Made by a program: the position numbers and the translations under genes
Shown here: in pieces, positions 9,423 through 24,767 of the stretch
Layout: each line of letters opens with the position of its first letter
Numbering within the stretch: the first letter of the stretch is position 1
From: Thermoprotei archaeon
GTDB taxonomy: Archaea; Thermoproteota; Thermoprotei; Thermofilales; B69-G16
Assembly (NCBI GenBank): GCA_003649235.1
Contig: QMRG01000006.1
Coordinates: 1 to 34,781 of the forward strand
DNA: 34,781 nt
Direction of reading: 5' to 3'
Notes under the pieces: model-generated
Databases searched by the model: none
What the model was told of the DNA's origin: nothing
Seen by the model: only the letters and a program-made list of their open reading frames with translations

Positions 9423-10703
9423 TTGCCGGTAAAGATCGATCCTGTTCTCTGTGCTAAGTGTAAGAGTTCTAGGAAGCTATGTGGTAGATCTAGATGCCCC
9501 ATACTTGTTAGATTAACAGCTTCATACAGAATTGCAAGTAAGATTCCACGAAGAGAAGTTTATGGTTCTACACCTCCTTCTGTTCTCATAGGGGAATGGG
9601 GGTATCCTAGTATTAGACTTGGAGTTAATATCCCACTTGTAATTGGGCTTAAAGCTAAGGAGTACGATTTTCCGGAGAATTGGTGGGGAAGGAAGAGTTT
9701 AGAAGATATTATAATGCTTAGATCTTCTATGATCTACTCGAGTTTCCGTGCTAATGCTAAAGTAGATGCCAGACTTTTTAAAAATAAGCTAGTAGCGGAG
9801 CTCCAGAATATAGCTCTTTCACAGTTACCGGTTGATACCGAAGCTTTATTCAAAAAACCTCCAATACTAAGCCTTAAATTTGACGGCATTGTCGCACCTA
9901 TAGGGCCTAGAGCAGACGCGGTTAATATCAAAGTTGTAGGCAATCCCAAGGTGCCTAGAAAAGTCGATTATATAGTTTCTGACATTGATGTCGATGCTAG
10001 AACTGCTTCTGTTGAACTTTATGAATATGGAGTTTCGTTCTATCATATAGTGAGACTTTTTAGCTTAGGATTACTCGGTGAGCGTAGATTTCGGAGAATA
10101 GTTCCGACTCGTTGGGCCATTACGGCTATTGATAAGATTCTGGGTGATAGATTACTGGGCAAGATTAGAGGTTATAAGGAATATGAAAAATATGCTGTTT
10201 TCCATGTAGAATATGTAGGAAATAGATATTTTCTCCTTTTTGTTCCTGGAGGATGGAGTTTTGAAATGTTGGAGATTTGGCTTCCTAGAAGTGTTTGGGT
10301 GAAAAGAGGCGAGGCTTTGATAGTAAGCAATTACGAGTTTTTTGATGGTAGAGCCAGACTTTCGGATGTAGATGGAGGTTATTATGCTATAAGGTTTCCA
10401 GTACTTGAATATTTGTCAAGGATTAGACGTAAAGCCACTGTAGTGGCTTTTAGGGAAATCACGCCAAATTACTATGCGCCTATAGGTTCTTGGCAGATAA
10501 GGGAAAGTATCAGAAATGCTCTTAAATCAAAGCCAGTTCTATTCGATTCCTTAAAGAATGCTTTAAAACATATATCCTCGAGACTCTACGCTGATACCAG
10601 AAAAGTTTACAAGAAATCAACTTTGTTGAGGATGTTAATGGAGCAAGAGAAGATAACCAAGTATTTAAAGGAAAATTTTAAACAATCTAGGCAGACTAGC
10701 TAG
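9423..10703 (+). CDS. nreA: NreA-family DNA repair protein
   Basis: A 426-aa archaeal protein of the Nre family (COG1602), reported to act in repair of DNA damage and to contact PCNA. The N-terminus has a Zn-binding knot CAKC-x6-CGRSRC (Cys10, 13, 20, 25). Family landmarks include the STPPSVLIGEWGYPSIRLG segment, IAPIGPRAD-like VAPIGPRADAV, and RIVPTRWAITAID. Near the C-terminus QEKITKYL fits the PCNA-interacting box pattern (QxxIxxY-hydrophobic). The TTG start is supported by GGGGGT a few bases upstream. The final 39 bases overlap the convergent reductase gene on the other strand. Confidence 0.88.
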   Translation: MPVKIDPVLCAKCKSSRKLCGRSRCPILVRLTASYRIASKIPRREVYGSTPPSVLIGEWGYPSIRLGVNIPLVIGLKAKEYDFPENWWGRKSLEDIIMLRSSMIYSSFRANAKVDARLFKNKLVAELQNIALSQLPVDTEALFKKPPILSLKFDGIVAPIGPRADAVNIKVVGNPKVPRKVDYIVSDIDVDARTASVELYEYGVSFYHIVRLFSLGLLGERRFRRIVPTRWAITAIDKILGDRLLGKIRGYKEYEKYAVFHVEYVGNRYFLLFVPGGWSFEMLEIWLPRSVWVKRGEALIVSNYEFFDGRARLSDVDGGYYAIRFPVLEYLSRIRRKATVVAFREITPNYYAPIGSWQIRESIRNALKSKPVLFDSLKNALKHISSRLYADTRKVYKKSTLLRMLMEQEKITKYLKENFKQSRQTS

Positions 10704-11819
10704 TACTAGCCTTTGTGTGTCCTCAACATCTAGATATAATTTGGCAATTATTTCTCTCATTTTAGGATCTCTAAGTAGTTTACCGGAGGTCATTTTCCCC
10801 TTTTTGAAAAACTTCAAGATGAGCTTCTCTAATCGGAATCTCCTATAGAAGCTCTTTCTAAGCATGGATAGATAATATTTTCCTACTTCATGAAGCGCTA
10901 TGTTTTTTCTTAAGTATGCGGATATGGCTTCAGCGGACATTTCTCCTGCTAGAAGTGCGAATTTTATACCTTCTCCAGTAAGAGGCGATACATGTCCAGC
11001 AGAATCTCCTGCCAGTATTATTCTATTCATAGCTATTCTATCTATAGGACCTGTGAGAGGTACTGGAGCATATCTAGCTTTGGATATTTCCTCTAAATTA
11101 TAGTAACTTAGTATTTTTCTTAGATATTTCCTTAAATCCAGGCCTTTGGTTCGAGAAGCTAAGGCTCCTAGGCCAGCATCTACGTACCCTTTCTTGGGGA
11201 AAATCCAAGCATAGCCGAAAGAAGAAAAGTCACTGCCTAGGAATATAATGTTAATTTTCAAAGATATTTCCATAAATAATTTTTTACTAGAATAAGCTTT
11301 CACTTGCGTTGTAAGGCCCAGCTCGCTGCTTTTGAATCTCCCTCTAACTATACTTCCTATTTTAGAATAAGCACCGTCTGCTGCCACTAGTATTTTAGCC
11401 TTAAAGCTGGCTTCATCTCTACCTGTATGCACTATTACCGTATTTTCCCTCGTTTCGACATTTATCACGGCAGTATTTGTTAAAATCTCTCCGCCCTCCT
11501 TCTCTACTTTATTAGCTAGATATTCAGCTAACTTTGTTCTATTGAGATTGTATCCTACTATATCTTCCAACTCTATCGTCCATTCGGATTCTCTAGTCAC
11601 AATTTTCAATCCTTTAACCGGGTAATCCGCAATAGAAGTCGAGATATTGAATCGATCGAATGCCGCAATTGGCAGGTAGCCAGCACAAAGTTTCTCGTAG
11701 TTAGGCTTTACCTCTTTCTCAAGAACAAGAACTCTAAACCCGTTTTCTGCCAGCTTTTTAGCACTTGAAAGACCAGCTGGGCCAGCTCCTATTATTATTA
11801 CGTCTAGAAGCTCGCCCAT
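10665..11819 (-). CDS. Geranylgeranyl reductase family flavoprotein
   Basis: A 384-aa FAD-dependent reductase. It shows the N-terminal dinucleotide-binding motif GAGPAG (residues 11-16), the family motif YAWIFPKKGYVDAGLG (YxWxFPx7GxG), and the distal FAD motif LAGDSAGHVSPLTGEG. In archaea such enzymes saturate the isoprenoid chains of membrane lipids (digeranylgeranylglycerophospholipid reductase) or of quinones and polyprenols. Which substrate applies cannot be read here. It starts one base after the stop codon of the Cys-rich gene, so the two are in one operon. The C-terminus runs into an antisense overlap with nreA. Confidence 0.9.
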   Translation of the reverse strand: MGELLDVIIIGAGPAGLSSAKKLAENGFRVLVLEKEVKPNYEKLCAGYLPIAAFDRFNISTSIADYPVKGLKIVTRESEWTIELEDIVGYNLNRTKLAEYLANKVEKEGGEILTNTAVINVETRENTVIVHTGRDEASFKAKILVAADGAYSKIGSIVRGRFKSSELGLTTQVKAYSSKKLFMEISLKINIIFLGSDFSSFGYAWIFPKKGYVDAGLGALASRTKGLDLRKYLRKILSYYNLEEISKARYAPVPLTGPIDRIAMNRIILAGDSAGHVSPLTGEGIKFALLAGEMSAEAISAYLRKNIALHEVGKYYLSMLRKSFYRRFRLEKLILKFFKKGKMTSGKLLRDPKMREIIAKLYLDVEDTQRLVLASLPRLFKIFL

Positions 11820-11820
11820 A

Positions 11821-12114
11821 TTATAATCCTTTTATTTCATAGTTTTTAGGACATATACGTCTAGATTCACGACATAGTTTTTCCGCTAACTCAATTTCTT
11901 TCCTCAGTCTGGCTTCCGCACTTGCTCTGCATAGTTCTGATTCCTTATGACAAATTGGGTTTGGACTTTTTATGCAAAGAGTAGATACATAGAGACATAT
12001 TTCTGCAGCTTTTTCATGATCTCCTTTAGCTACTAGTTCCCTAGCCGTTTTACACAATCTGAGAGCTCTATCGCAATAGAGCAAGGCTATTTTTAATATA
12101 GGTCTATTAGCCAT
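11821..12114 (-). CDS. Helical protein with two exact twin-CX6C units
   Basis: A 97-aa all-helical protein with eight Cys at 14, 21, 40, 47, 55, 62, 81 and 88 (counted from ATG 12114). They form four CX6C pairs: CDRALRLC, CLYVSTLC, CHKESELC and CRESRRIC. The first four Cys repeat at an offset of exactly 41 residues, so the protein is an internal duplication of a C-x6-C-x18-C-x6-C helical hairpin. Cys seven apart lie on one helix face, so each hairpin could hold two inter-helix disulfides or bind metal. No signal peptide is seen. The track starts at TTG 12123, but the TATA box fits ATG 12114 better. It is one base upstream of the GGR-family reductase. I do not recognise a named family. Confidence 0.8.
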   Translation of the reverse strand: MANRPILKIALLYCDRALRLCKTARELVAKGDHEKAAEICLYVSTLCIKSPNPICHKESELCRASAEARLRKEIELAEKLCRESRRICPKNYEIKGL

Positions 12115-12140: not shown

Positions 12141-12148
12141 ATATAAAT
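12141..12148 (-). promoter_or_regulatory. TATA box of the Cys-rich protein / reductase operon
   Basis: ATTTATAT on the minus strand is centred 30 bases before ATG 12114. It predicts a transcript starting near 12118 with almost no leader, after the TTG at 12123. Confidence 0.45.
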
Positions 12149-12153
12149 AAGAA

Positions 12154-13053
12154 TTACTTGGGTTTAGCTTTTAAAACTCGTCTTTTATAGGTTTTATACG
12201 CGATATAAATTAGACCTCCTAGAACTATTAGCGGTATAAGAGCAAATACTATTACTACGAGAGCATATACGGCAGCGTACATAGCTGCTAATCCTTTAGC
12301 TACAGCATCTAAAATATTGAAAGACGGCCATTCAACTTCCACTTTCTCCGGCTCTATAAATTCTACAACTATAGTTGAGTACTCTATTCTGTTTTCTAGA
12401 TATCTAAGTCTGGCGGTAAGTCTTTCAATTTCCTCTCTAACCACTTTAAGCTGCGCTTCTACTTTCAGTATCTCTTCCACAGTAACTGCTTTATCTAATA
12501 ATGCTAATAGACGCTTCTCGACATTTTTCAAATTATTCAATCTAGCAGTTAAATCAATATACTCTTCGGTTACATCTATAGCTCTTACATTTTCATCTTC
12601 AAGCTCTCCAAGTTTTCTCAAATCATTAATTGCTAGATAGAAATTTTCCGTTGGAATTCTAAGCGTTACCACTGCTCTATCTTTGCCTATCTGTAAGTTG
12701 CCTACGTAGCCGTTATATTTTAAAGCTATGCTCTCCGCTTCTCGAGCTTTTTCCTCCGAATCTTCAACTTTTAACCTGAGATAAGCCTCATATACCATCT
12801 TCCTATAAGGCAATGTTTGAGCTTGAACTTCAAATTCTCCAGCAGTACTCTTCTCTTCCGTTTTTTCAGTCGAAGGCATGAAGACGGGCATTTCCGGCTT
12901 TTCAATATCTGAAACTATTAAAGGTTCTCTATGTGTGGGTTTATGCATATAGTAACTCATTACCAGATTTCCCAGAAAGGTTAAAAATACTAGAGAAAAT
13001 ATCCCTATAAGACACACAGCAATTAAGACTAGGATGGTTGATTTTCTTGTCAT
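12154..13053 (-). CDS. DUF4349 membrane protein
   Basis: About 299 aa from the preferred ATG. There is an N-terminal membrane anchor (about residues 6-30), a Pro/Glu-rich linker, and a conserved DUF4349 domain (KYNGYVGNLQIGKDRAVVTL and RIPTENFYLAINDLRKLG). A long heptad coiled coil follows (VEEILKVEAQLKVVREEIER), then a YSTIVVEF strand, a second hydrophobic helix pair (VYALVVIVFALIPLIVLGGL) and a basic tail. Both termini probably face the cytoplasm with the domain outside. The track begins at TTG 13110, straight after the upstream stop, but ATG 13053 gives a standard MTRKS anchor start and an AT-rich TATA-like element about 30 bases upstream. The role is unknown; bacterial relatives are putative lipoproteins. 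Confidence 0.82.
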   Translation of the reverse strand: MTRKSTILVLIAVCLIGIFSLVFLTFLGNLVMSYYMHKPTHREPLIVSDIEKPEMPVFMPSTEKTEEKSTAGEFEVQAQTLPYRKMVYEAYLRLKVEDSEEKAREAESIALKYNGYVGNLQIGKDRAVVTLRIPTENFYLAINDLRKLGELEDENVRAIDVTEEYIDLTARLNNLKNVEKRLLALLDKAVTVEEILKVEAQLKVVREEIERLTARLRYLENRIEYSTIVVEFIEPEKVEVEWPSFNILDAVAKGLAAMYAAVYALVVIVFALIPLIVLGGLIYIAYKTYKRRVLKAKPK

Positions 13054-13110
13054 AGGAGAGAATGCGTATATGTGGAATAAAATATTTCCTATGTTCAAAA
13101 TTTTTAACAA

Positions 13111-14879: not shown

Positions 14880-15212
14880 TTAATGTTTACATCTTTTATA
14901 GGGGCACGTTTTGACGTATACGAGCGTGCCATTACTCAACAATCTATACGTATAGGCGCAACCATACGTTAGTTTTTCTTCACCTATGTTCCAAGTATTA
15001 ATCATTAAATTCCAAGAAAATGTTCTAATTTCGATTAATCCTATATCGTCGAGTTTTCTGCCTAACTTGAACTTATCAGCTTGAATTTCTGCGCATTTCC
15101 AAGCTTCTACGCTATATCTTAAAACTACAAATCTCGAATTCGTATACAAGAAGAGCATGGAAGATAGGGCAATAACAAATATTAGCACAGTCGCTACTAC
15201 GTCTAATCTCAA
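14880..15212 (-). CDS. Small pilin-like membrane protein, last gene of the leftward pilus operon
   Basis: A 110-aa protein with one N-terminal hydrophobic helix (VVATVLIFVIALSSMLFLY) directly after MRLD, then a hydrophilic beta-type domain with four Cys (AWKCAE, YGCAY, KTCPYKRC). This is the layout of minor pilins or pseudopilins, though there is no clear class III cleavage motif. It starts at TTG overlapping the TGA of the TadC-like gene (TTGA), which signals translational coupling and membership in the pilus operon. The extracellular Cys may form disulfides. Family not recognised. Confidence 0.72.
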   Translation of the reverse strand: MRLDVVATVLIFVIALSSMLFLYTNSRFVVLRYSVEAWKCAEIQADKFKLGRKLDDIGLIEIRTFSWNLMINTWNIGEEKLTYGCAYTYRLLSNGTLVYVKTCPYKRCKH

Positions 15213-16444
15213 ATTCCCACACCGAGTAGATTTGGAGTTATTATAAGTGCTAGATCGAAAGCTATCAACATTAGCGAGGAAATGAACGGCAGGTAGAGAA
15301 ACGAGTATAGAGGATTTCCCTCTCTACTCGATGATGTAGAAATGGAGAGAGAAATTGCATTTAATGCTAGTACGATATCCAGACTTTCCTCTAGTCTCCA
15401 TATAATACTACTGCTGGGAATATAGACTCCAGCATATCCAAAGGTAGGCAGCGAAGAGAAATATCTGAGAATTACGAGTATTATCCCGTAGATCAACGCT
15501 ACTGCTCCAGCTTCGATAAAAGCGTAGACAAGCATTACCAGGGTCTTCGACCTAAGTTTTTTAAATGCCTCATAATACCTATTTACAAAATTTTCAAGCC
15601 TTCGAATATATTCTCCGACTTTACTCCCACTGTATAGAATTAAAAAATAAAGCGCCGTAGTAGAAGCAGCAGCTACACCATACCATTTTTCGCTCAAGAG
15701 ATAGTCCGGATCATCTATCCCTAGACATTTAAATATATTGAAAGGACATGAAGCTGCTTTTCTGACTAAAATTAAAGCTTCTTCCAGTACATCTTTTAAT
15801 TTCCTAATGTCTAAGTACAGTGATAGCGATAGAGGGAGAGAGAGTATTAGAGAAGCTAAAGCTGGCTTATCAAAACCTATGTACTTAAGTATAACATATC
15901 CGACCGGGAGTAGGAATGCTAGAAAAAATTTCTTCTTACAGCGCAAAGGTAAATGCATTTCTAGCGGATAGATAGTTAATCCTGCGAAGCTAACTGGCAA
16001 TGCCAGTAGAGCAAATGCTATAAGTGATACTAAAGCGGCTTCTCCATTGGTGAAAAAAAGCACACTGGCTATGATACTGGGCATTAATGTAGTAAAGACT
16101 GATATAAACTGATAGAATTGAGATATGTTGTAGTCAGCTAATTCAAGACTCACTTCTATATCTTTTAACTCTTGTTCAAAACTTCGTACAAGTATCTCTC
16201 TATCTCCGGAGATTTGAGATTCATAGGCAGCTCTTAAGACTTTTTTAAAGCGATTGCTATAATTATCGCTAGCCTCTTTTTCAAAAATAGAATCTAAGTT
16301 TTTCACGTAATCTAATCTGCCCATGTTTTTTAGCTTATACAGAGTGGTGAGAGGAGGAAGAGGTGAAGATGCTAAAAGTATATAGAGTGGAAGCGCCTCA
16401 TTTTCGCTTTTAATCCATTCAGAAATTTTTAAAAAAATAGGCAT
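15209..16444 (-). CDS. TadC/ArlJ-like pilus membrane platform protein
   Basis: A 411-aa polytopic protein with about seven hydrophobic segments (for example VFTTLMPSIIASVLFF, LVSLIAFALLALPVSFAG, LVMLVYAFIEAGAVALIYG). A large cytoplasmic helical domain precedes them (about residues 25-110: FKKVLRAAYESQISGDREIL, FEQELKDIEVSLE). That is the architecture of T2SSF/TadC/ArlJ platform proteins, which sit under the pilus and transmit work from the ATPase. Primary-sequence identity is weak; the assignment rests on topology and on its position between the pilin and a pilin-like gene with the ATPase upstream. GGTGG lies 8 bases before the ATG. Confidence 0.75.
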   Translation of the reverse strand: MPIFLKISEWIKSENEALPLYILLASSPLPPLTTLYKLKNMGRLDYVKNLDSIFEKEASDNYSNRFKKVLRAAYESQISGDREILVRSFEQELKDIEVSLELADYNISQFYQFISVFTTLMPSIIASVLFFTNGEAALVSLIAFALLALPVSFAGLTIYPLEMHLPLRCKKKFFLAFLLPVGYVILKYIGFDKPALASLILSLPLSLSLYLDIRKLKDVLEEALILVRKAASCPFNIFKCLGIDDPDYLLSEKWYGVAAASTTALYFLILYSGSKVGEYIRRLENFVNRYYEAFKKLRSKTLVMLVYAFIEAGAVALIYGIILVILRYFSSLPTFGYAGVYIPSSSIIWRLEESLDIVLALNAISLSISTSSSREGNPLYSFLYLPFISSLMLIAFDLALIITPNLLGVGI

Positions 16445-16458
16445 TTAAAGACCACCGC

Positions 16459-16851
16459 TCAACCTAAAACTTCTACTGTAATTTTCTGTTCTCCATCAGG
16501 GGTTCTAACTATTCCTGGAATACTCTCGCCTATAGTAAAAACTCCACCTGTTAAATCGATTATTACATTTATTGCTTCTCCTTTAGCTATGGTTACACTC
16601 TGACTTCCAGTAGCGCCGTTAGCTAATACAACGCTAACAGTCCCGCTGAAATCTTCAGTCCCATCGTTGCGTAAAGTCATGTAAAGACTTGAGCCTACAA
16701 CGTATGCTCCGGGTTCCGCGTAGATAAGAGGTTTTTTCACCGCACTACTCGTTGTCGCTATAACATACCAAGACACGAGAGCCGCTGATACTAGGAAAGC
16801 GACTACCACCAGAACTACTACTATTGGCGGAACTCCTCCTTTCCTGTTCAT
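16459..16851 (-). CDS. Class III (PibD-type) prepilin, probable major pilin
   Basis: A 130-aa archaeal pilin. MNRKGG is a short positively charged leader followed by VPPIVVVLVVVAFLVSAALV, the hydrophobic assembly helix; PibD/FlaK-type peptidase would cut after the Gly. The mature domain is a beta-rich, Thr/Ser/Gly-rich sandwich (SLYMTLRNDGTEDFSGTVSV, IIDLTGGVFTIG). The track start at 16896 adds 15 residues before the leader. I chose ATG 16851 because GGTGA sits just upstream and the leader then has canonical length. It is encoded between the secretion ATPase and the TadC-like platform. No prepilin peptidase gene is in the window. Confidence 0.85.
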   Translation of the reverse strand: MNRKGGVPPIVVVLVVVAFLVSAALVSWYVIATTSSAVKKPLIYAEPGAYVVGSSLYMTLRNDGTEDFSGTVSVVLANGATGSQSVTIAKGEAINVIIDLTGGVFTIGESIPGIVRTPDGEQKITVEVLG

Positions 16852-16892
16852 TATTTCACCAAGAATCGAGTTCGGTAAATTATAAAAGCGGA

Positions 16893-18104
16893 TCAAAACT
16901 CAGAACTTTGGACTTTTCTCTTTAAAAGTGAATATGCGGAATCGAAATCTCCTATCATAATTCTTTCAGAGAAGAATCTCCTGAATCTTTCTTCAGACGC
17001 ATGAACTCCTCTTTTATATAATGCAACGAGTTTATCATCGTAGGTTAGGTAAACACCCTCTACTTCTCTATGGATAATGCCTCCCACCACAAACTTTTTC
17101 ATAACTACAATACAATCTACAAGTTGCATTACAGTTTCTACAGTTGCATCTTTGATACTCTGTCTCATTAGTTCGGCCATGCTAAAGATTGCCTTTTTAG
17201 CATTTGGAGAGTGATAAGTAGTAAGCGCAGCTATCCCCAATCTACCTGCTTCAATCCAACTCCAGATTTCTTCTCCTCTTAGCTCTCCTAGTACTAGAAT
17301 ATCCGGTCTCTCATAACGCATGCTTTGTCGAATAAGCATAGTAACTGACGTGTTTGGACCTGCTTTGCTGTAAGCAATATTGCTCATGTTTTTCAAGTAA
17401 ATCTCTTTCACCTGTTCGATTATTGAAATTCTTAGATGGGGAAATATAGAAGTTATTTCGTCTAGTAAGCTCGATAAAAGAGTGGTCTTTCCTGAACCAG
17501 CTGGACCTACAATTACAACGACGCTTGGTTTTAGTATTATCATAAGTAGTCTAGCGGCAAGGATAGGGTCTATAATTTTGCTAAGTCTAGGTATGTTTAC
17601 GACTTTTGTCGCAGTCATTTCGATGTCATCGCTTATTAGAGGAAGCTTGAAATAGAGCCTCCATCCGTCGATTTCAGCTTCAGATTGTGGTTTGGAGTAA
17701 TCTATCCGAGCCCCGGATTTTATAACTAATTTATTGATAGTTTTTTCCGGTTCGAAATTTTTTATGTAGACTTTGTATCTTCTCCCTCTAATAGTGGCCC
17801 ATACTCTGTTTCCTCTAACAAAGATTTCTTGAGTTTCAGGAAATTCTACTATTGGAGCTAAAGCTCCCCATATGGGATTTTTCTCTAGAGGATATATGTA
17901 GATAATATCTTCGTTTAAAATTATTTTTCCACTTTTACAGGTAATTACCTTCATATACTCCTTAATATCTAAGGCATCTCTTGAGAAAAACTCATTCTCA
18001 TCATTTATTCTAATACTCTGTCTTTTTAATTTCATTTTAACTTTTTCTCCTCTTTTTTCCATTTTATCCAATTTTTTCTTTAATAATTGAAAAGAACGTA
18101 ACAT
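16893..18104 (-). CDS. TadA/VirB11-like pilus assembly ATPase
   Basis: A 403-aa hexameric-type secretion ATPase that would power pilin polymerisation from the cytoplasm. The N-terminal domain (about 60-160) has the paired beta strands of this family (VWATIRGRRYKVYI). The catalytic part has Walker A GPAGSGKT (200-207), the Walker B region PDILVLGELRGEE, and a His box reading TTYHSPN where relatives often have T-x-HAN. It is short for the family, lacking a long N-terminal extension. It starts two bases after the parA-like stop codon and overlaps no other gene except the dispensable 5' extension of the pilin ORF. Confidence 0.9.
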   Translation of the reverse strand: MLRSFQLLKKKLDKMEKRGEKVKMKLKRQSIRINDENEFFSRDALDIKEYMKVITCKSGKIILNEDIIYIYPLEKNPIWGALAPIVEFPETQEIFVRGNRVWATIRGRRYKVYIKNFEPEKTINKLVIKSGARIDYSKPQSEAEIDGWRLYFKLPLISDDIEMTATKVVNIPRLSKIIDPILAARLLMIILKPSVVVIVGPAGSGKTTLLSSLLDEITSIFPHLRISIIEQVKEIYLKNMSNIAYSKAGPNTSVTMLIRQSMRYERPDILVLGELRGEEIWSWIEAGRLGIAALTTYHSPNAKKAIFSMAELMRQSIKDATVETVMQLVDCIVVMKKFVVGGIIHREVEGVYLTYDDKLVALYKRGVHASEERFRRFFSERIMIGDFDSAYSLLKRKVQSSEF

Positions 18105-18106
18105 AT

Positions 18107-18859
18107 TTAACGCCTCAAAATGGTGCTTATTTTAAATAAATTTTTTAACGATTTAGTTTTCCTACCAGAGTCTTTAGGTTTAAGAATTTCAAGCGCTAGT
18201 ACGACTAAGCTCTCCTGCGTTTTACGGGAAAGGTTAAGAAGAACCATTGTCAAGTTTTCCGGAGATAGCAGTGGGAGGTAGGGATCGAAAGGTATTATGA
18301 AACATTTGTCGTGAAATTCTTCTATAAGAGTTTTATATTTTTCAACTCCTAAATCTCTGTTTAATACTGGTATCGTCCTACACTTTCCGACATAGGCTTT
18401 ACTTACAGAATGTATAACCACGCTGTTTGGATTATACACTAAAACTGCTACATCACATGCATCAATGAAAGGATCATATTCGCCGTTTTGATATGCTGGA
18501 ATATCAAGAATAGCGATATCGAAAAACGTCTCAATTCGCTTGAAAGAGCTTTCTATAGTTGAAAATGATACTTCAGGTAGGTATCCATTATTTGGTATTA
18601 GATAGAAGCTTAGATTTTTATCTCTAAGCGTTATTTCACACTTCAAAATAGCATCCGTTATAGATCTTTTATGTAAAACATCCCGTAAATATGGTGGAGG
18701 AGGAGTATTTAACACCATATGAGAGCTATTACCTTGAACACCTGTATCTATCAAAATTACTCTCTTTCCTACGCCAGCATAGAGTATGGTTAATAATATT
18801 GACATTGTAGATTTCCCAGTCCCGCCTTTGCATCCCGATGTTAAACAAACCTTTAGCAT
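18107..18859 (-). CDS. ParA/MinD-family ATPase, TadZ/CpaE-like
   Basis: A 250-aa deviant Walker ATPase with KGGTGKST (residues 11-18), LIDTGVQGNSSH (switch I region) and IAILDIPAYQNGEYD (Walker B region). No N-terminal receiver-like domain, as found in bacterial TadZ/CpaE, is present. It is the first gene of the leftward operon and is followed two bases later by the secretion ATPase, so a role in placing or organising the pilus machine, as TadZ does in bacteria, is likely by context. The C-terminus is basic (KDSGRKTKSLKNLF). The ATG is preceded by GAGGAG, and TTATTTA lies about 30 bases upstream. Confidence 0.85.
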   Translation of the reverse strand: MLKVCLTSGCKGGTGKSTMSILLTILYAGVGKRVILIDTGVQGNSSHMVLNTPPPPYLRDVLHKRSITDAILKCEITLRDKNLSFYLIPNNGYLPEVSFSTIESSFKRIETFFDIAILDIPAYQNGEYDPFIDACDVAVLVYNPNSVVIHSVSKAYVGKCRTIPVLNRDLGVEKYKTLIEEFHDKCFIIPFDPYLPLLSPENLTMVLLNLSRKTQESLVVLALEILKPKDSGRKTKSLKNLFKISTILRR

Positions 18860-18946
18860 TCTCCTCTTACGATATGTGAAGAAGAGTAAATAAGCTAGGC
18901 AACTCTGCTCGGCTTAAATCACCTATTTCACAAAATTAACGAGAAT
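18860..18946. promoter_or_regulatory. Divergent promoters of the two pilus operons
   Basis: An 87-base gap separates the leftward operon (TTATTTA on the minus strand about 30 bases before ATG 18859) from the rightward operon (CTTAAATC at about 18911-18919, some 30 bases before ATG 18947). Both promoters would be under one regulator if a site lies between them; no clear palindrome was found. Confidence 0.5.
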
Positions 18947-19936
18947 ATGAGAAAGCTCAGCTTGTTAGTAATAACTTTGCTAGCTATTACATTGTCGTCG
19001 TTGCTGTGGAATGGAGTGAATAAACTAGATAGAGAAAAATCGAAAACTGCGACAATAGAAAATAGTTATAGATCTGACAATAAGTGTCGATTAAGACTAC
19101 GTTTTAAAGGAGAAGGAATTGTCAGCATTAATGACGTCAACTACACGAGTGATATAATTTTGAATTTTACAGCAAATAGTTATGTGAACTTGTTGGCATA
19201 CAATTCGGAAAATTCATCTCATAGATCGTTTTTTGAATATTGGAAGATTAATGATAAGAAAGTTGAAGAAAATCCTCTAACACTATACTGTGAGGATACT
19301 TTTGAGGTAATCTCTGTTTTTAGGGTGAATACCAAAGAGGAGGAAATCTATGGCAAGCCTCTTATCTCGCTCTTAGACTTCGAGAACATAGCCTTAATGA
19401 TCGAAAACGAAGATGATTACGTGTATTTAGAAGATGGATACTTGAAGTTTAAACGTGGGTGCGTGTTTATACCATTAAAAGAGCCTCTGCCGCTCTTTAA
19501 TAATAATTCTAGCTGTTGGATTAAACTCTCTCGAGTAAAAGCTAGAGTATTTTCCACTGCGCGAGGCGAAGAAGGTGTAATGGAAGATTTCATGCTGTTT
19601 CTAGTATTGGATAAGAGAGTTATTCTAGAAAACATTCTCGAAGGCCCCATAGTAGCTATTGGCTATTGGTATTCCGGAATAGGAGGAAAATGCTATGTTG
19701 TAAAGAGGTTCTTCTTCTATGACGGACAAGGAAAGCCCAGGCTAGAATACCTGGCTATTCTTCGTGAAAACAAGTTAAGAGATAATGTTGCGGTTGATGT
19801 ATCAGATATATTATCTCGGAATTTTCTTCCTCTTGAGTTATTCCGTGATAGGTACGTAGTAGGTATCTATATTTTTGGATATGATGAAGGATTTGTGGAT
19901 TTTAGAGATTCAATACTAGAATGCGGAGGTGGCTAG
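18947..19936 (+). CDS. Membrane-anchored surface protein with one InlB-like repeat
   Basis: A 329-aa protein with an N-terminal signal or anchor helix (LSLLVITLLAITLSSLLW) after MRK. The exported part has an Ig-like beta domain at about residues 45-130: a LRLRFKGEGIVSIN strand pair, then FFEYWKINDKKVEENPLTL and the closing EVISVFR strand. This F-x-x-W...V-x-x repeat pattern recurs three times in the next protein. The second half (about 135-329) is another beta-rich domain of unknown type with Cys pairs. It leads the eight-gene rightward operon and overlaps the next gene by 16 bases. Probably a pilus tip, base or S-layer-associated part; unrecognised by family. Confidence 0.75.
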   Translation: MRKLSLLVITLLAITLSSLLWNGVNKLDREKSKTATIENSYRSDNKCRLRLRFKGEGIVSINDVNYTSDIILNFTANSYVNLLAYNSENSSHRSFFEYWKINDKKVEENPLTLYCEDTFEVISVFRVNTKEEEIYGKPLISLLDFENIALMIENEDDYVYLEDGYLKFKRGCVFIPLKEPLPLFNNNSSCWIKLSRVKARVFSTARGEEGVMEDFMLFLVLDKRVILENILEGPIVAIGYWYSGIGGKCYVVKRFFFYDGQGKPRLEYLAILRENKLRDNVAVDVSDILSRNFLPLELFRDRYVVGIYIFGYDEGFVDFRDSILECGGG

Positions 19937-22551
19937 ATATTAGGAAACTCGTGTTTTTAATATTCTCTCTATATGTTCTCTTTATCTTTTCAAGTATTGT
20001 ATCATCCGTAACAAACTTTCATGTTCATGCATATACTCCTAATTACGAAGATCATACAGATATCACGGTTAAAAACATAAAGATAGAGGGGTTAGAGCCT
20101 AACTCAACTTATAAAGTTACTTTTAACTATATAGCACAGGTTCAGTACAGCGTATATAGCGAAAATGGCTATGTGGCAGCTGGATGGTTTAATACTAGAT
20201 TTTTACACCGTAATGGAGTACAGTTGGATAAACGAGAGACAGTAAGCGGCACATTCTCCATGACAGGGTATACTGGTGCTTCAAATTTCCTAATTTTCGA
20301 AGTAGAACTATGGGCCGAAGCTGATGGAGGGGAGCTCTATAGCTATGATGTCGCGGTTATAGATGTAATCGCCGAAGTTGAAATATCTTCTATTGAAAAA
20401 ATTAGTGATGATGGTGGAGATAATGGCGGTGGAGGAGGGGGAGGAGGAGGCAAAAAATCCAAGTATAGTGGCTTGACTGTTAAAGCTGCAGATCAGAAGG
20501 GCCATATTTTGTATCATGTTCCGATAAACGTCTCGGGTTACCGAGAAGGTGTCTACAAGACACCATTTACTATCTTCCGTAAAAGCGTTGTAGATAGCAG
20601 TTTTTCGGTAGTTCTAGTAGCTCCCCAGAAATTAGTTTTTGGAAGTAAAGTTAGATATTTCATAAATTGGAGTCTTAAACCAGCATGGACCTATAGGACT
20701 AAATGGTATCAAAATAATACTATTCGAGTATTCATCCCCGATAATGCTGAGTATATAGCAACTGCCTATTACGGTAAGCGGTATTACTGGTATTGTTTGG
20801 AAGTGAAGTCGAATATTCCTGTTTTGATAAGCTATGAGGGTAATATTGGTCTGGGGAGTAAATACACGAATTTTACGCTATATAGAGAATCTCCAATAGA
20901 TGATGGTTTAACGGTAATTTTAAAGGCTCCTGAGCAGGTTTCCTACAATGGATCTTTATGGTTTTTCGATAAGTGGGTTTATAAAATACCTATATATTCA
21001 AAAGAAAAAGAATTATATGATAATATTGGAGAATTCTCATGTCCGAGTCAAGTTGCGAATAAAGGCGTTGTTATAGCTATTTATAAGCGGACAGTTAAGC
21101 TTACTGTTGAATCTTATCCTATAAAAGGAATTCCTATACAGATCTGGCACGATGATTTGTTTATGGTGGACTACACTGATTTCGTTTTAAGGAATTTGAG
21201 CATAGGTGATATCGTCTCTCTGCGAGCTCCTGAGCATTTCGCTATTAATGATGAAGAATATTATTTTTCTCATTGGCTAGTAAACGGAAAGAGAGTGAGT
21301 AATGAATTAATTGAAGTATTCATGACAGGAGATAAGAGAGTTGTAGCCTATTACTATAAAAAGGAATGGGGAGGAAGGAGGGAAGCTAATTTAAAGGGTG
21401 AATGGCTTATACCAGGCGAATCGATCAATATAACGCTGCCCTATCCTGGAGTTTACACGATTAAAGTTACTCCTTACTATAATATTAGCAAGAGACTCAC
21501 AGCATTGGTGGTTGCTAATAATGCCAGCAAATACGCGTATATTGACCTGGATAATTTAACTTTAACTACTCGAGTCCCCTTTATCTCAAAGAAAGGGTCT
21601 ATGCATGTTTCAATTAGGGAATTGAAGAACTTTCCGGTGATCGCTAGCGGAGAGTATAAAGGTTGGTATTTTCTAGGAGCTTCGGCTTGGACCCCGAGTG
21701 TTGAAAGTTCAGGTATAAATTTAGATACTATAATTTTCGATGAGAAACATTGGGTAACTTACGCCGTTTATAATATAACTGTTACATGGCGTGACTTTGA
21801 TAGCTTTCCGATACGAAAACATTATTTGAAAGTAGAGTCTCTCAACGTTAAAACCTGGTCGAAAATTATAGTTATAACTAGCCTTAATTTTACGCTATGG
21901 TCTTTCTATGATAGAAACGGAGTATATATTGTATGGGAGGCCTACTATAGATATCTGCCTCCTCCCGAGTTGAACTTGTCATTAGAGCCTCCTCATCAAG
22001 ACGTTTGGTTTACGCTAGAGCATGGGAATGACATCGTTATCTCGCAACGTTTAGGTAAGGGACGTAAATACTATGGAGTAGGCAATGGAACCGTTTTTAG
22101 CGACGCTTACCTTCCCTACGATTATATTATCGAGGAATATGGTTTAAATCACTTAGTGTTTAAGGCTAGAGTTAGATGGTCCGGTCCTCTCGGTTCTCCA
22201 GTAAATATTGTTCCGTTTAGCAAAGAAAAGGATATTCATTTAGTCCCTCTATGCCTGAAGCTTCTCGAGATAAAGGAAAAACCGTTACACTTGGTTTTTA
22301 AGTGGACTCTCTTCAATAAAACGCCGTTGCCAGCGTATTCTCGTCTTTTCTGTCCGTGTGTGAGAATAGATGTCTTTACAGAGTGGGATGGCAAACTTTA
22401 CGAAAATGTTGGCGTTAAATCAAAGTACGATTATACAGTATACATTGTAGATTTAGATGTTGATATAACATGGCCTAGGCGTATAACGATATTCTTCATA
22501 CACTCTAGAACTAAAGACTTGGTTCTATTAGTTCCGAGCGTAAAACTATGA
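19921..22551 (+). CDS. Large surface protein with three InlB-like beta repeats and a poly-Gly linker
   Basis: At 876 aa this is the largest product of the operon. An N-terminal hydrophobic helix (about 10-30) is followed by a beta-sandwich domain (about 35-160) that looks carbohydrate-binding-like, then a flexible linker of acidic residues and nine Gly in a row (163-178). Three ~100-aa repeats span about 182-482, each with AP-x...F-x-x-W (FINW, FFDKW, YFSHW) and a closing strand before the next copy. A long beta-rich C-terminal part lacks a membrane anchor. Many NxS/T sequons suggest glycosylation. It resembles an adhesin or pilus-tip protein; the family is not recognised. The 3' end overlaps the next gene by ATGA. 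Confidence 0.8.
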   Translation: MRRWLDIRKLVFLIFSLYVLFIFSSIVSSVTNFHVHAYTPNYEDHTDITVKNIKIEGLEPNSTYKVTFNYIAQVQYSVYSENGYVAAGWFNTRFLHRNGVQLDKRETVSGTFSMTGYTGASNFLIFEVELWAEADGGELYSYDVAVIDVIAEVEISSIEKISDDGGDNGGGGGGGGGKKSKYSGLTVKAADQKGHILYHVPINVSGYREGVYKTPFTIFRKSVVDSSFSVVLVAPQKLVFGSKVRYFINWSLKPAWTYRTKWYQNNTIRVFIPDNAEYIATAYYGKRYYWYCLEVKSNIPVLISYEGNIGLGSKYTNFTLYRESPIDDGLTVILKAPEQVSYNGSLWFFDKWVYKIPIYSKEKELYDNIGEFSCPSQVANKGVVIAIYKRTVKLTVESYPIKGIPIQIWHDDLFMVDYTDFVLRNLSIGDIVSLRAPEHFAINDEEYYFSHWLVNGKRVSNELIEVFMTGDKRVVAYYYKKEWGGRREANLKGEWLIPGESINITLPYPGVYTIKVTPYYNISKRLTALVVANNASKYAYIDLDNLTLTTRVPFISKKGSMHVSIRELKNFPVIASGEYKGWYFLGASAWTPSVESSGINLDTIIFDEKHWVTYAVYNITVTWRDFDSFPIRKHYLKVESLNVKTWSKIIVITSLNFTLWSFYDRNGVYIVWEAYYRYLPPPELNLSLEPPHQDVWFTLEHGNDIVISQRLGKGRKYYGVGNGTVFSDAYLPYDYIIEEYGLNHLVFKARVRWSGPLGSPVNIVPFSKEKDIHLVPLCLKLLEIKEKPLHLVFKWTLFNKTPLPAYSRLFCPCVRIDVFTEWDGKLYENVGVKSKYDYTVYIVDLDVDITWPRRITIFFIHSRTKDLVLLVPSVKL
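20466..21370 (+). repeat. Three tandem InlB-like beta repeats in the large surface protein
   Basis: Each unit has a hydrophobic strand ending in AP (VLVAPQ, ILKAPE, SLRAPE), a short turn, an F/Y-x-x-W core (YFINW, FFDKW, YFSHW) and an A-x-Y or AIY strand (ATAYYG, IAIYK, VAYYYK). The copies are far diverged at the nucleotide level, so this is an old duplication and not a recent one. Confidence 0.65.
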
Positions 22552-23120
22552 ATTCTCAAATGCTCGTAGTATTAGCGTTATTAATATCCTCCATGCTAGC
22601 TTTAGCGCTGGCTACAACTCGCCTAGCTTTTGAAACAGGGAAGATAGATTTCAGAGATGTTGTAGAATTGCGAGAAAGACTGTGCTTTGACAGGTCAGTA
22701 TTCGTTAATTTCAAAGTCTTCGTTTTCAAGGAGAAGCACGTATTGGAAATTTGTGTTGAAAATGGATGTAGAAGAATAACAATAGCCGAGGCGAGAATAA
22801 TTGCTCCCATCAGTTCTTCTCCTTTAATCGAACCGGTAGATTTTAGAGAACGGAGAGAACTTTTTGCTCTATATTCTAACGGGACTCATGCTGGTATCTA
22901 TACTGGAGTTCAGCTGGAATTCACGGATGGAGAATTGATTATAACATACATCGAGCCGGAACGTATAGGCAGTACGCAGAGACTTGTACTTTCGAGAGAA
23001 TTGATAGATGATATCGTTATCTACGTAGAGGATGCAACTATATTGATAGATGGAGAAAAGATTGCCGTGGTCAATGGATTTAAGAAAATAAGAATAAGGA
23101 AAGTTGTTTTGTCACTATAG
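22548..23120 (+). CDS. Pilin-like membrane protein, 190 aa
   Basis: MNSQ is followed straight away by a hydrophobic helix (MLVVLALLISSMLALALA), then a soluble extracellular region rich in beta strands (VNFKVFVFKEKHVLEICVEN, IIAPI, GVQLEFTDGELIITYIEP, IVIYVEDATILIDGEKIAVV). The leader has no Lys/Arg-Gly cleavage site, so it may be an uncleaved pseudopilin-like component. A Cys pair (ICVENGC) is present. It starts inside the stop codon of the large surface protein (ATGA), showing tight coupling. Family not recognised. Confidence 0.75.
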   Translation: MNSQMLVVLALLISSMLALALATTRLAFETGKIDFRDVVELRERLCFDRSVFVNFKVFVFKEKHVLEICVENGCRRITIAEARIIAPISSSPLIEPVDFRERRELFALYSNGTHAGIYTGVQLEFTDGELIITYIEPERIGSTQRLVLSRELIDDIVIYVEDATILIDGEKIAVVNGFKKIRIRKVVLSL

Positions 23121-23154
23121 CTTCCTTAAATCTTTTATTTCACATTTTAGATTG

Positions 23155-23466
23155 ATGAATCTAGATGAAGTTTTGATAGTTGCAGCTTCTGTACTAGCCC
23201 TAGCTCTTACACTACAATTAGGATATTCTATGCTTAACGCTGAAGACTTAGTTTACAAAGAGGAAATATTGTATTTGGTAAATGTTTCTATGTTATCTCT
23301 TAGTCCCGGGTCTAGTTTAAAGTTATGTTTGCCTTATCCTATAGCCTTTAATAGCTCTGATTTAAAAGAATGTGGAGTCCCGGCTTATGGTCGAGTTGGC
23401 GGTTCTTGTTTGGAAATAACAAAGAGTTATGATGGAGTGGCAGAGGTGGGGATATGCGAGCCTTAG
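23155..23466 (+). CDS. Minor pilin-like protein, about 103 aa
   Basis: From ATG 23155 the product begins MNLDEVLIVAASVLALALT, a short leader plus hydrophobic helix, with Glu5 as in type IV pilins. The track start at TTG 23104 adds 17 residues overlapping the upstream gene and breaks that layout. The soluble part has four Cys (KLCLPYP, KECGVP, GSCLEI, GICEP). Its last 20 residues (SCLEI...DG-x-AEVGICE) match the C-terminus of the 24372 product, so the two are paralogs. It overlaps the next gene by 13 bases. Confidence 0.72.
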   Translation: MNLDEVLIVAASVLALALTLQLGYSMLNAEDLVYKEEILYLVNVSMLSLSPGSSLKLCLPYPIAFNSSDLKECGVPAYGRVGGSCLEITKSYDGVAEVGICEP

Positions 23467-23786
23467 AGGCGGTAGCTATTTCAGTGATATTTGTAATTTT
23501 TAGCGCATATTTTCACGTGATCGCTGTTTATAAGCCTCCTTCGCTACACGTGTATTCGGTAAATAGAGCTTTAGCGTGGCTTTTGTTACGTTCGGATTCT
23601 CTGCCGTATACTGGAAAATTGAAAGGGCTTATAGTCGAGTTGATCCCAAGTGTCGTATACTTCGACGATGGAGAATCTATCATTTATTTTAGAGACTCGG
23701 CTAGAGTTTACAGTTTTAGAATTGTTTGGCTCGGTTATAATGGAACGCTTTCACCCAGAGTAGTGGTGGTAGGCGTTGAACCGTAA
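23454..23786 (+). CDS. Minor pilin-like protein, 110 aa
   Basis: The short MRALEAVAISVIFVIFSAYF start is a hydrophobic helix with Glu5, the residue that assembles type IV pilins. After the helix comes AVYKPPSLHVY, the same KPP-x(3-5)-Y feature found after the helix in the 24372 product. The rest is beta-rich (LIVELIPSVVYFDDGESIIY). No Cys occur. It starts within the upstream gene and ends 11 bases into the next, so the operon is translationally coupled. Family unknown. Confidence 0.72.
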   Translation: MRALEAVAISVIFVIFSAYFHVIAVYKPPSLHVYSVNRALAWLLLRSDSLPYTGKLKGLIVELIPSVVYFDDGESIIYFRDSARVYSFRIVWLGYNGTLSPRVVVVGVEP

Positions 23787-24375
23787 AGGGCAGATTCTAC
23801 TCTTAGCCATAATTTTCTTAGCTTCTGTCTTATTATATTCGACGAGCCGTCTGAAGAAGCCAAGTCCAAATTTCCTAGAATACAATGGAGAATTACAATC
23901 AGCAGAACTTATTCACATAGCCAGGTTATACTGGAGTAGCGAAAATAGTACTATAGATCGTCTCTTAACTATTCTCTATAGTTTGTCTAATGAAAATAAA
24001 GTAAGCATGCCGATTGTATCTTATAAGTGCAATTTTACTCTGGTTCCAGGACAACGTGGTTATGCATGGTATTATACAGTATACAATAATTCCGTATCAT
24101 TTCGGGCTTATTGGAGTTGGGAGTTTAAAGGTTTTTACATTAAAAATCTTTATGGAGAAAAATTGCTGTATAAGAGTTATTTACTTATCTATTACCACAA
24201 TTATACAGCTCCGCAATGGGATTCTATGATAATCTATCCATCATTAGACGACGATATGCGAATAGCTGATTTAACCTATTTTGGAGAAGGAATTTGGAGT
24301 ATAGGTTTCCCTGCACGCTATACTGAGTATATTTTTGTTGATGAATACGGACTAAAGGTGGTGGTGAAGGAATGA
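23776..24375 (+). CDS. Class III signal pilin-like protein, 199 aa
   Basis: MNRKGQILLLAIIFLASVLL has a proper class III leader: basic MNRKG, then a hydrophobic helix beginning with Gln, nearly identical to the leader of the major pilin encoded at 16459-16851. This links the two divergent operons to one prepilin peptidase and one machine. The mature part is aromatic-rich (WYYTVYNNSVSFRAYWSWEF) with a KKPSPNFLEY segment after the helix. The start is TTG, whose context (GCGTTGAACCGTAAAGG) overlaps the previous stop codon. Several N-glycosylation sequons occur. Likely a minor pilin. Confidence 0.78.
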   Translation: MNRKGQILLLAIIFLASVLLYSTSRLKKPSPNFLEYNGELQSAELIHIARLYWSSENSTIDRLLTILYSLSNENKVSMPIVSYKCNFTLVPGQRGYAWYYTVYNNSVSFRAYWSWEFKGFYIKNLYGEKLLYKSYLLIYYHNYTAPQWDSMIIYPSLDDDMRIADLTYFGEGIWSIGFPARYTEYIFVDEYGLKVVVKE

Positions 24376-24767
24376 ATGTAGCCTATGCTATTTATCTCTC
24401 AAGTTTTCTATTTTCGCTAATAATAGCGTTTTCAACGATTAGTATTCTTAAACCTCCAACTCAGTATCGAGCTTCAATAGCTCAGCTTGTGTGCGATATA
24501 TGTACGGTATATCGAAACCCAGGCAGTCATGTATTCGGCTTCTATGATTTTAGAGGAGGTGAAGTCGCTATTGGCAATAATGTCATATTGTTGGAAAAGA
24601 GAGAATTATGGATTTTCCCATATTGCGGAAGACAGGAAGATAACATTATCTATCTTCCAATAGAAGTTGATTTTCCATTTAAAGTTAGTGGATTGTCGTG
24701 TCTAAAGCTTGAGAATATAGACGGTAAAGTTTACGTATCTCTCTGTGAGGTGGTGGGGAATGATTGA
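24372..24767 (+). CDS. Minor pilin-like protein with Cys pairs, 131 aa
   Basis: MNVAYAIYLSSFLFSLIIAF is a short leader-helix. It is followed by ILKPPTQY, the shared post-helix KPP feature. The soluble region has Cys in VCDIC, PYCG, SCLKL and SLCE. The C-terminal segment SCLKLENIDGKVYVSLCE aligns with that of the 23155 product. The ATG overlaps the upstream TGA (ATGA). It probably forms disulfides outside the cell. Family unknown; a role in the pilus is inferred from layout and neighbours. Confidence 0.73.
   Translation: MNVAYAIYLSSFLFSLIIAFSTISILKPPTQYRASIAQLVCDICTVYRNPGSHVFGFYDFRGGEVAIGNNVILLEKRELWIFPYCGRQEDNIIYLPIEVDFPFKVSGLSCLKLENIDGKVYVSLCEVVGND

Follow-up and report, generated by a model that had tools for sequence, protein, structure and literature searches.

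A duplicated eight-cysteine protein family of archaea with a predicted helical-bundle fold, possible metal layers and a possible PAC2-family partner

Several described systems come to mind when a small archaeal protein with eight cysteines is found encoded immediately beside a GGR flavoenzyme. The GGR of Methanosarcina requires a ferredoxin that is encoded in its own locus, and a ferredoxin-like gene is often present in archaeal GGR loci (PMC10821996). Eight cysteines in a helical bundle have been made to work by design in DSD-Fdm, a domain-swapped dimer that holds two [4Fe-4S] clusters 12 Å apart and transfers electrons (reviewed in PMC6696605), while cytosolic disulfides are widespread in thermophilic archaea (PMC3177088). 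Among the archaeal Pba proteins, PbaB of Pyrococcus activates the 20S proteasome by means of its HbYX tail (PMC3605417), and PbaA assembles with PF0014, a small protein that is co-transcribed with it, into a 10:10 complex (PMC6992696). Here we ask how one locus of a Thermoprotei archaeon compares with these systems, our window being the whole 34,781-nucleotide stretch of DNA that was analysed.

The gene of interest starts with an ATG at 12114 and ends with a stop at 11823-11821 on the minus strand, at the place given in the original prediction, and its translation is MANRPILKIALLYCDRALRLCKTARELVAKGDHEKAAEICLYVSTLCIKSPNPICHKESELCRASAEARLRKEIELAEKLCRESRRICPKNYEIKGL. In the numbering of our alignment the cysteines of the product are 14, 21, 40, 47, 55, 62, 81 and 88, with no others, and the prediction was correct both about these positions and about the offset of 41 residues that carries the first four onto the last four. 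By exact count, the probability that all four offsets would be equal for eight cysteines placed at random in 97 residues is 5e-5, a figure that should be read as a post-hoc test. The repeat is also visible once the Cys pairs are excluded: across 17 homologues, the half-versus-half mean BLOSUM62 score is then +0.19 at offset 41, the sole positive value among 22 offsets (the next best being -0.29), and the duplication therefore extends beyond the cysteines. The reading frame differs from that of the nearest congener by 12 nonsynonymous and 49 synonymous changes, and is therefore a real gene under purifying selection. Since the ATG of the GGR gene starts 1 nt past the stop of the eight-Cys gene in the window, the two genes are probably co-transcribed in the window's genus, and the position of a possible TATA element (Table 1) suggests a leaderless transcript beginning at the eight-Cys gene.

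Table 1. Coordinates of the eight-Cys gene, its parts and the adjoining elements in the window
Feature	Position	Strand	Basis
Eight-Cys four-helix-bundle (predicted) protein CDS (P0001, 97 aa + stop)	11821..12114	-	Homologues and purifying selection
Helix 1 (predicted), C14-x6-C21, with first hairpin turn, codons 14-34	12013..12075	-	Alignment, AlphaFold2
Helix 2 (predicted), C40-x6-C47, codons 40-47	11974..11997	-	Alignment, AlphaFold2
Helix 3 (predicted), C55-x6-C62, codons 55-62	11929..11952	-	Alignment, AlphaFold2
Helix 4 (predicted), C81-x6-C88, then P89, codons 81-88	11851..11874	-	Alignment, AlphaFold2
GGR-superfamily flavoprotein	10665..11819	-	TIGR02032, 195.6 bits (cut-off 158.8)
Possible TATA element, TTTATAT	12141..12147	-	About 26-33 nt upstream of ATG; consensus inspection only

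As to the wider surroundings, the upstream neighbour (12154-13110, minus strand) encodes a DUF4349 membrane protein (1.1e-53), which is also next to the eight-Cys gene in one relative of the same genus (G002) and is separated from it by two unmatched ORFs in another (G001). A block at 15209-24767 of the window, read from its translations, encodes an ATPase-like protein of secretion type (16893-18104), a ParA/MinD-like protein (18107-18859) and a number of short proteins that have hydrophobic N-terminal segments, and as a whole it resembles a type IV pilus-like system.

The window's genome has a single copy of the eight-Cys gene, and relatives are present in 8 of the 27 genomes of its order, one congener being a Thermofilaceae MAG that was the sole close congener in a contig scan of the genomes. 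Further relatives belong to a second class of the phylum, where they are spread over several families; we would guess this class to be Bathyarchaeia. We distinguish a main subfamily (17 sequences from 16 genomes of the two classes) from a second one, common in the second class, whose members have about 108 residues. The two align with an hhalign probability of 96.8%, which falls to 90.5% when all cysteines are changed to alanine, and 20 shuffled controls that keep the Cys columns reach at most 2.6%; judged by these profile comparisons, the two subfamilies are homologous. All eight cysteines are retained in every aligned homologue and are the sole invariant columns of the 28-sequence alignment, in which identity goes down to 22%. 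Loss of the cysteines in relatives, which the original prediction had named as an outcome that would count against it, is thus not seen among these 28 sequences.

The four C-x6-C pairs are constant in 28/28 sequences and the turn lengths vary, the first hairpin having x18 or x19, the second x17, x18, x19, x21 or x22, and the stretch between hairpins (C47 to C55) x7 or x4. Because of this variation the exact 41-residue repeat is no general rule across the family. In three proteins (L082, L083 and L084) both hairpins have the turn between the inner cysteines lengthened by one residue, x19 in place of x18, as if the halves must match in length. One genome (G428) carries two copies, one with eight cysteines (L086) and one with 12 (L090).

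No Pfam or NCBIfam model matches the window protein above its cut-off, and NCBIfam gave no match for any of ten family members. The window protein scores 12.5-14.2 bits with the TPR models of Pfam, whose cut-offs are 23.5-27.8, and Pfam hints of USP8 and DUF1771 are likewise below cut-off; we set all of these aside. Searches of viral contigs found no relative of the protein, and PHROGs and PADLOC gave no matches for it. What we have, in other words, is a family that lacks a Pfam or NCBIfam model and whose only invariant residues are eight cysteines in what looks like a heptad ladder.

AlphaFold2, given family sequences only as input, places helices at residues 4-29, 33-47, 53-70 and 74-87 of the window protein (pLDDT 89.3, pTM 0.79) and gives four helices for the second subfamily too (pLDDT 87.6, pTM 0.77). 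The eight-Cys protein is predicted to be an up-down-up-down antiparallel four-helix bundle of two duplicated hairpins, in line with the helical hairpins originally proposed. We infer that its cysteines form two layers of four, 14/47/55/88 and 21/40/62/81, each with one cysteine per helix, because cysteines counted from the predicted turns fall at matching heights; one heptad corresponds to a rise of about 10.5 Å. The ladder gains support from the extra cysteines of relatives, since these sit a heptad from core cysteines: in the main subfamily the distance to a core Cys of the same helix is exactly seven residues for 21 of 23, where about 2 would be expected, a count that comes from related sequences and hence reflects fewer independent events. 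Four members (L087-L090) have a complete third layer at 28, 33, 69 and 74, whereas the layer is partial in L085, which has 33 and 69 only, and in L082-L084, which have 69, and the family in this way offers a natural gradation from two to three Cys layers. Most members of the second subfamily have a ninth cysteine in helix 4, which then reads C-x3-C-x2-C.

A bundle lined with cysteines of course raises the suspicion of a minimal copper-storage protein (Csp/DUF326), in which a four-helix bundle of this sort stores Cu(I). The general architecture is the same, with cysteines pointing into a four-helix bundle (PMC6747150), the C-x3-C-x2-C of the second subfamily fits, and one member of that subfamily scores 16.4 bits for DUF326, under the cut-off of 20.4. 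However, hhalign probabilities against 12 Csp/DUF326 sequences are 0.9-3.6%, within or near the range of shuffled controls that keep the cysteines, no Csp chain appears among the listed matches of the sequence and fold searches (Foldseek, VIA), the eight-Cys protein has far fewer cysteines and no copper gene was recognised among its neighbours. Membership of Csp/DUF326 is therefore unsupported by the profile-profile test, and we regard copper storage as very improbable. More generally, the best VIA hits of the fold searches, at Z of about 10-11, below the level advised for helical bundles, are generic bundles (HPt, cytochrome c', BRIL and designed bundles), PDB sequence searches with the family profile returned only weak, chance-level matches to TPR, amoebapore and RFC, and none of the profile, PDB and fold searches established a link, by sequence or by fold, to a known family of metal-binding bundles.

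The same cysteines could also be paired within each hairpin. A disulfide-stapled double hairpin, with C14-C47, C21-C40, C55-C88 and C62-C81 stabilising the protein in a hot, PDO-containing cytosol as a twin-CX6C analogue of CHCH proteins, is a possibility that we rate as real with the odds clearly against it. The pair sums are indeed symmetric about the hairpin turns (14+47=21+40=61 and 55+88=62+81=143), and the same two sums come from 28+33 and 69+74, the extra pairs. A hydrophobic-moment model, which depends on bundle handedness and on the omission of the cysteines and so is not decisive, sets the cysteines of the main subfamily at 50-110 degrees from the hydrophobic face calculated without them, and in one handedness it also allows facing pairs. 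In addition, PDO is encoded in the window's genome and in most genomes with a homologue, and thermophilic archaea widely use cytosolic disulfides (PMC3177088). What sits awkwardly with staples is that the partial layers, 33 with 69 or 69 on its own, contain no hairpin pairs, and that members with nine cysteines exist; such incomplete third layers and odd counts are therefore easier to explain without pairwise disulfides. Nor is the dependence on PDO that was originally proposed supported as a general rule, since four genomes that are each at least 98% complete (G097, G081, G227 and G341) have no PDO above cut-off and keep all eight cysteines. The eight cysteines are kept, too, in genomes whose amino-acid composition looks mesophile-like (G317, G338 and G335) on rough estimates from 2,600-3,700 residues, and some members of the second subfamily occur in genomes of this kind.

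Mainly because the eight cysteines persist both without PDO and in mesophile-like genomes, we favour metal or cluster sites, in a protein that would partner PAC2, over disulfide staples, which are still a serious rival. This argument is not conclusive, since the hosts of the main subfamily mostly look thermophilic, many of them have PDO and cytosolic disulfides are a feature of thermophilic archaea. The metal-binding bundle, offered originally as the alternative to staples, has come out with support at least equal to theirs.

The genomic neighbourhood across the family differs from what the window alone shows. Direct adjacency to GGR is confined to three loci, all of the window's genus (G000-G002), and in three loci of one other family a distant GGR lies two genes away. 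The original idea that coupling to GGR is a clue to function is not supported as a general rule, adjacency being a matter of one genus and the widespread partner being PAC2. One could still picture a helical substitute for ferredoxin, in which two stacked [4Fe-4S] clusters would pass electrons to the adjacent GGR as ferredoxin does for the Methanosarcina enzyme. The probable transcription unit in the window's genus and the GGR two genes away in the other family speak for such a role, as do the ferredoxin-like genes of archaeal GGR loci (PMC10821996) and the electron transfer of DSD-Fdm (PMC6696605). Yet 14 of the 17 main-subfamily loci, and the four second-subfamily loci examined, have no adjacent GGR, and the GGRs of the two lineages are only 25-30% identical. 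We also know of no redox role of PAC2, and on balance we think the ferredoxin-like role unlikely.

A PAC2-family gene (PF09754), in comparison, lies directly downstream in 12 of the 17 main-subfamily loci, across the two classes, and in 11 of these it is on the same strand at -11 to +9 nt from the eight-Cys gene, the twelfth being placed by coordinates. TIGR00162 ('proteasome assembly chaperone family') matches the PAC2 neighbour below its own cut-off. In one locus (L081) the PAC2 match beside the eight-Cys gene (G008:C13:4342-4974) contains an in-frame TAA, which is either a true lesion or a fault of the assembly. No PAC2 gene adjoins the eight-Cys gene in the window's genus, in G003 or at the second copy in G428, and the PAC2 orthologue of the window's genome sits elsewhere, unlinked to the eight-Cys gene. 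In a tree of 59 PAC2 sequences, the linked copies join the orthologues of the window's genus, which are unlinked, in one clade (99/96), and this clade also takes in sequences from G004, G009 and G011, three genomes for which the search turned up no eight-Cys gene. The orthologues of these three (L149, L138 and L151, respectively) are on a long branch, 0.84 as against 0.25 for the window's genus, and this might reflect loss of the partner. An HbYX-like tail, for example WYYV or PFYV, ends six of the nine complete linked PAC2 proteins, and the unlinked orthologue of the window ends in PWYV. To our knowledge, partners of Pba proteasome factors have not been described in Thermoproteota, and its place beside PAC2 genes whose products mostly end in an HbYX-like tail makes the eight-Cys protein a possible partner of archaeal factors of this kind, an idea for which PbaB and PbaA are precedents.

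Other neighbours recur as well. A divergently oriented methyltransferase gene lies beside seven main-subfamily loci and also beside the second subfamily, and this shared neighbour again ties the two subfamilies together; it resembles an archaeal protein-lysine methyltransferase (NF041081, 166 and 140 bits for the two copies scanned, cut-off 200). Near three members of the second subfamily (L091-L093) there is a gene for a zinc- or iron-chelating protein of the CxxCxxCC type (PF03692), together with a long conserved gene that by eye looks like one for an Lhr-type helicase and, in two of the loci, a 4HBT thioesterase.

Our main reading, to which we give a probability of roughly 45%, is that the protein holds Cys4 metal or cluster layers in a bundle whose main partner is the PAC2 protein, and that it came to lie next to GGR by a move in the window's genus. 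A small archaeal protein, probably cytosolic, would fold as an antiparallel four-helix bundle, and two cysteines one heptad apart in each helix would build two stacked layers, with a third (28/33/69/74) in some relatives. Each layer may be a Cys4 metal site, whether [4Fe-4S], Zn(Cys)4 or a thiolate cluster. The main partner would be a PAC2-family, Pba-type ring protein, in most cases with a putative proteasome-binding HbYX-like tail, and the complex of bundle and PAC2 protein could depend on metal or redox state for its stability or gating; in the window's genus the eight-Cys gene would then have moved next to the GGR flavoenzyme. A more daring version, which we think unlikely, puts a stack of two or three [4Fe-4S] clusters in the core of the bundle and makes the protein a natural helical ferredoxin, a subunit that would couple a PAC2-type proteasome activator to the cell's redox or iron state and that one genus would have borrowed as an electron donor for GGR.

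How, then, does the family stand beside the systems that it recalls? Like PF0014 (PMC6992696), the eight-Cys protein is small, unannotated and encoded in the same unit as a PAC2/Pba-family gene, and the two are set apart by description, PF0014 being modelled as alpha/beta with a three-stranded sheet and the eight-Cys protein being predicted as all-helical. The likeness to Csp (PF03860, DUF326), a four-helix bundle with cysteines along its helices, concerns a generic fold and is weak for membership, and the eight-Cys family differs in having only 8-12 cysteines, in strict heptad layers, and a different gene context. The original comparison with eukaryotic twin-CX9C (CHCH) proteins, made with a shorter spacing in mind, stands as far as the antiparallel helical hairpin with two cysteines per helix is concerned, and the paired C-x9-C motif itself is absent, every pair in the 28 sequences being C-x6-C; moreover, the archaeal protein has two tandem hairpins and would reside in the cytosol. 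Like the 2[4Fe-4S] ferredoxins, it has eight cysteines by internal duplication, a proline after the last cysteine in most main-subfamily members and, in one genus, a GGR neighbour, but it is without the CxxCxxCxxxC(P) motif and is predicted to be all-helical, and the window protein has no ferredoxin match in Pfam. In layout there is a likeness to DSD-Fdm, which also has eight cysteines in the core of a helical bundle, and two sites about 10-12 Å apart would be expected here; that one is a designed dimer, whereas the eight-Cys protein is a natural single-chain predicted bundle, so that DSD-Fdm shows that such a layout can work and is no proof that the natural protein does likewise. If its layers do hold metal clusters, the family would be a natural counterpart of the helical bundles designed with eight cysteines and [4Fe-4S] clusters, and would show in a simple way how duplicating a hairpin can make cofactor sites.
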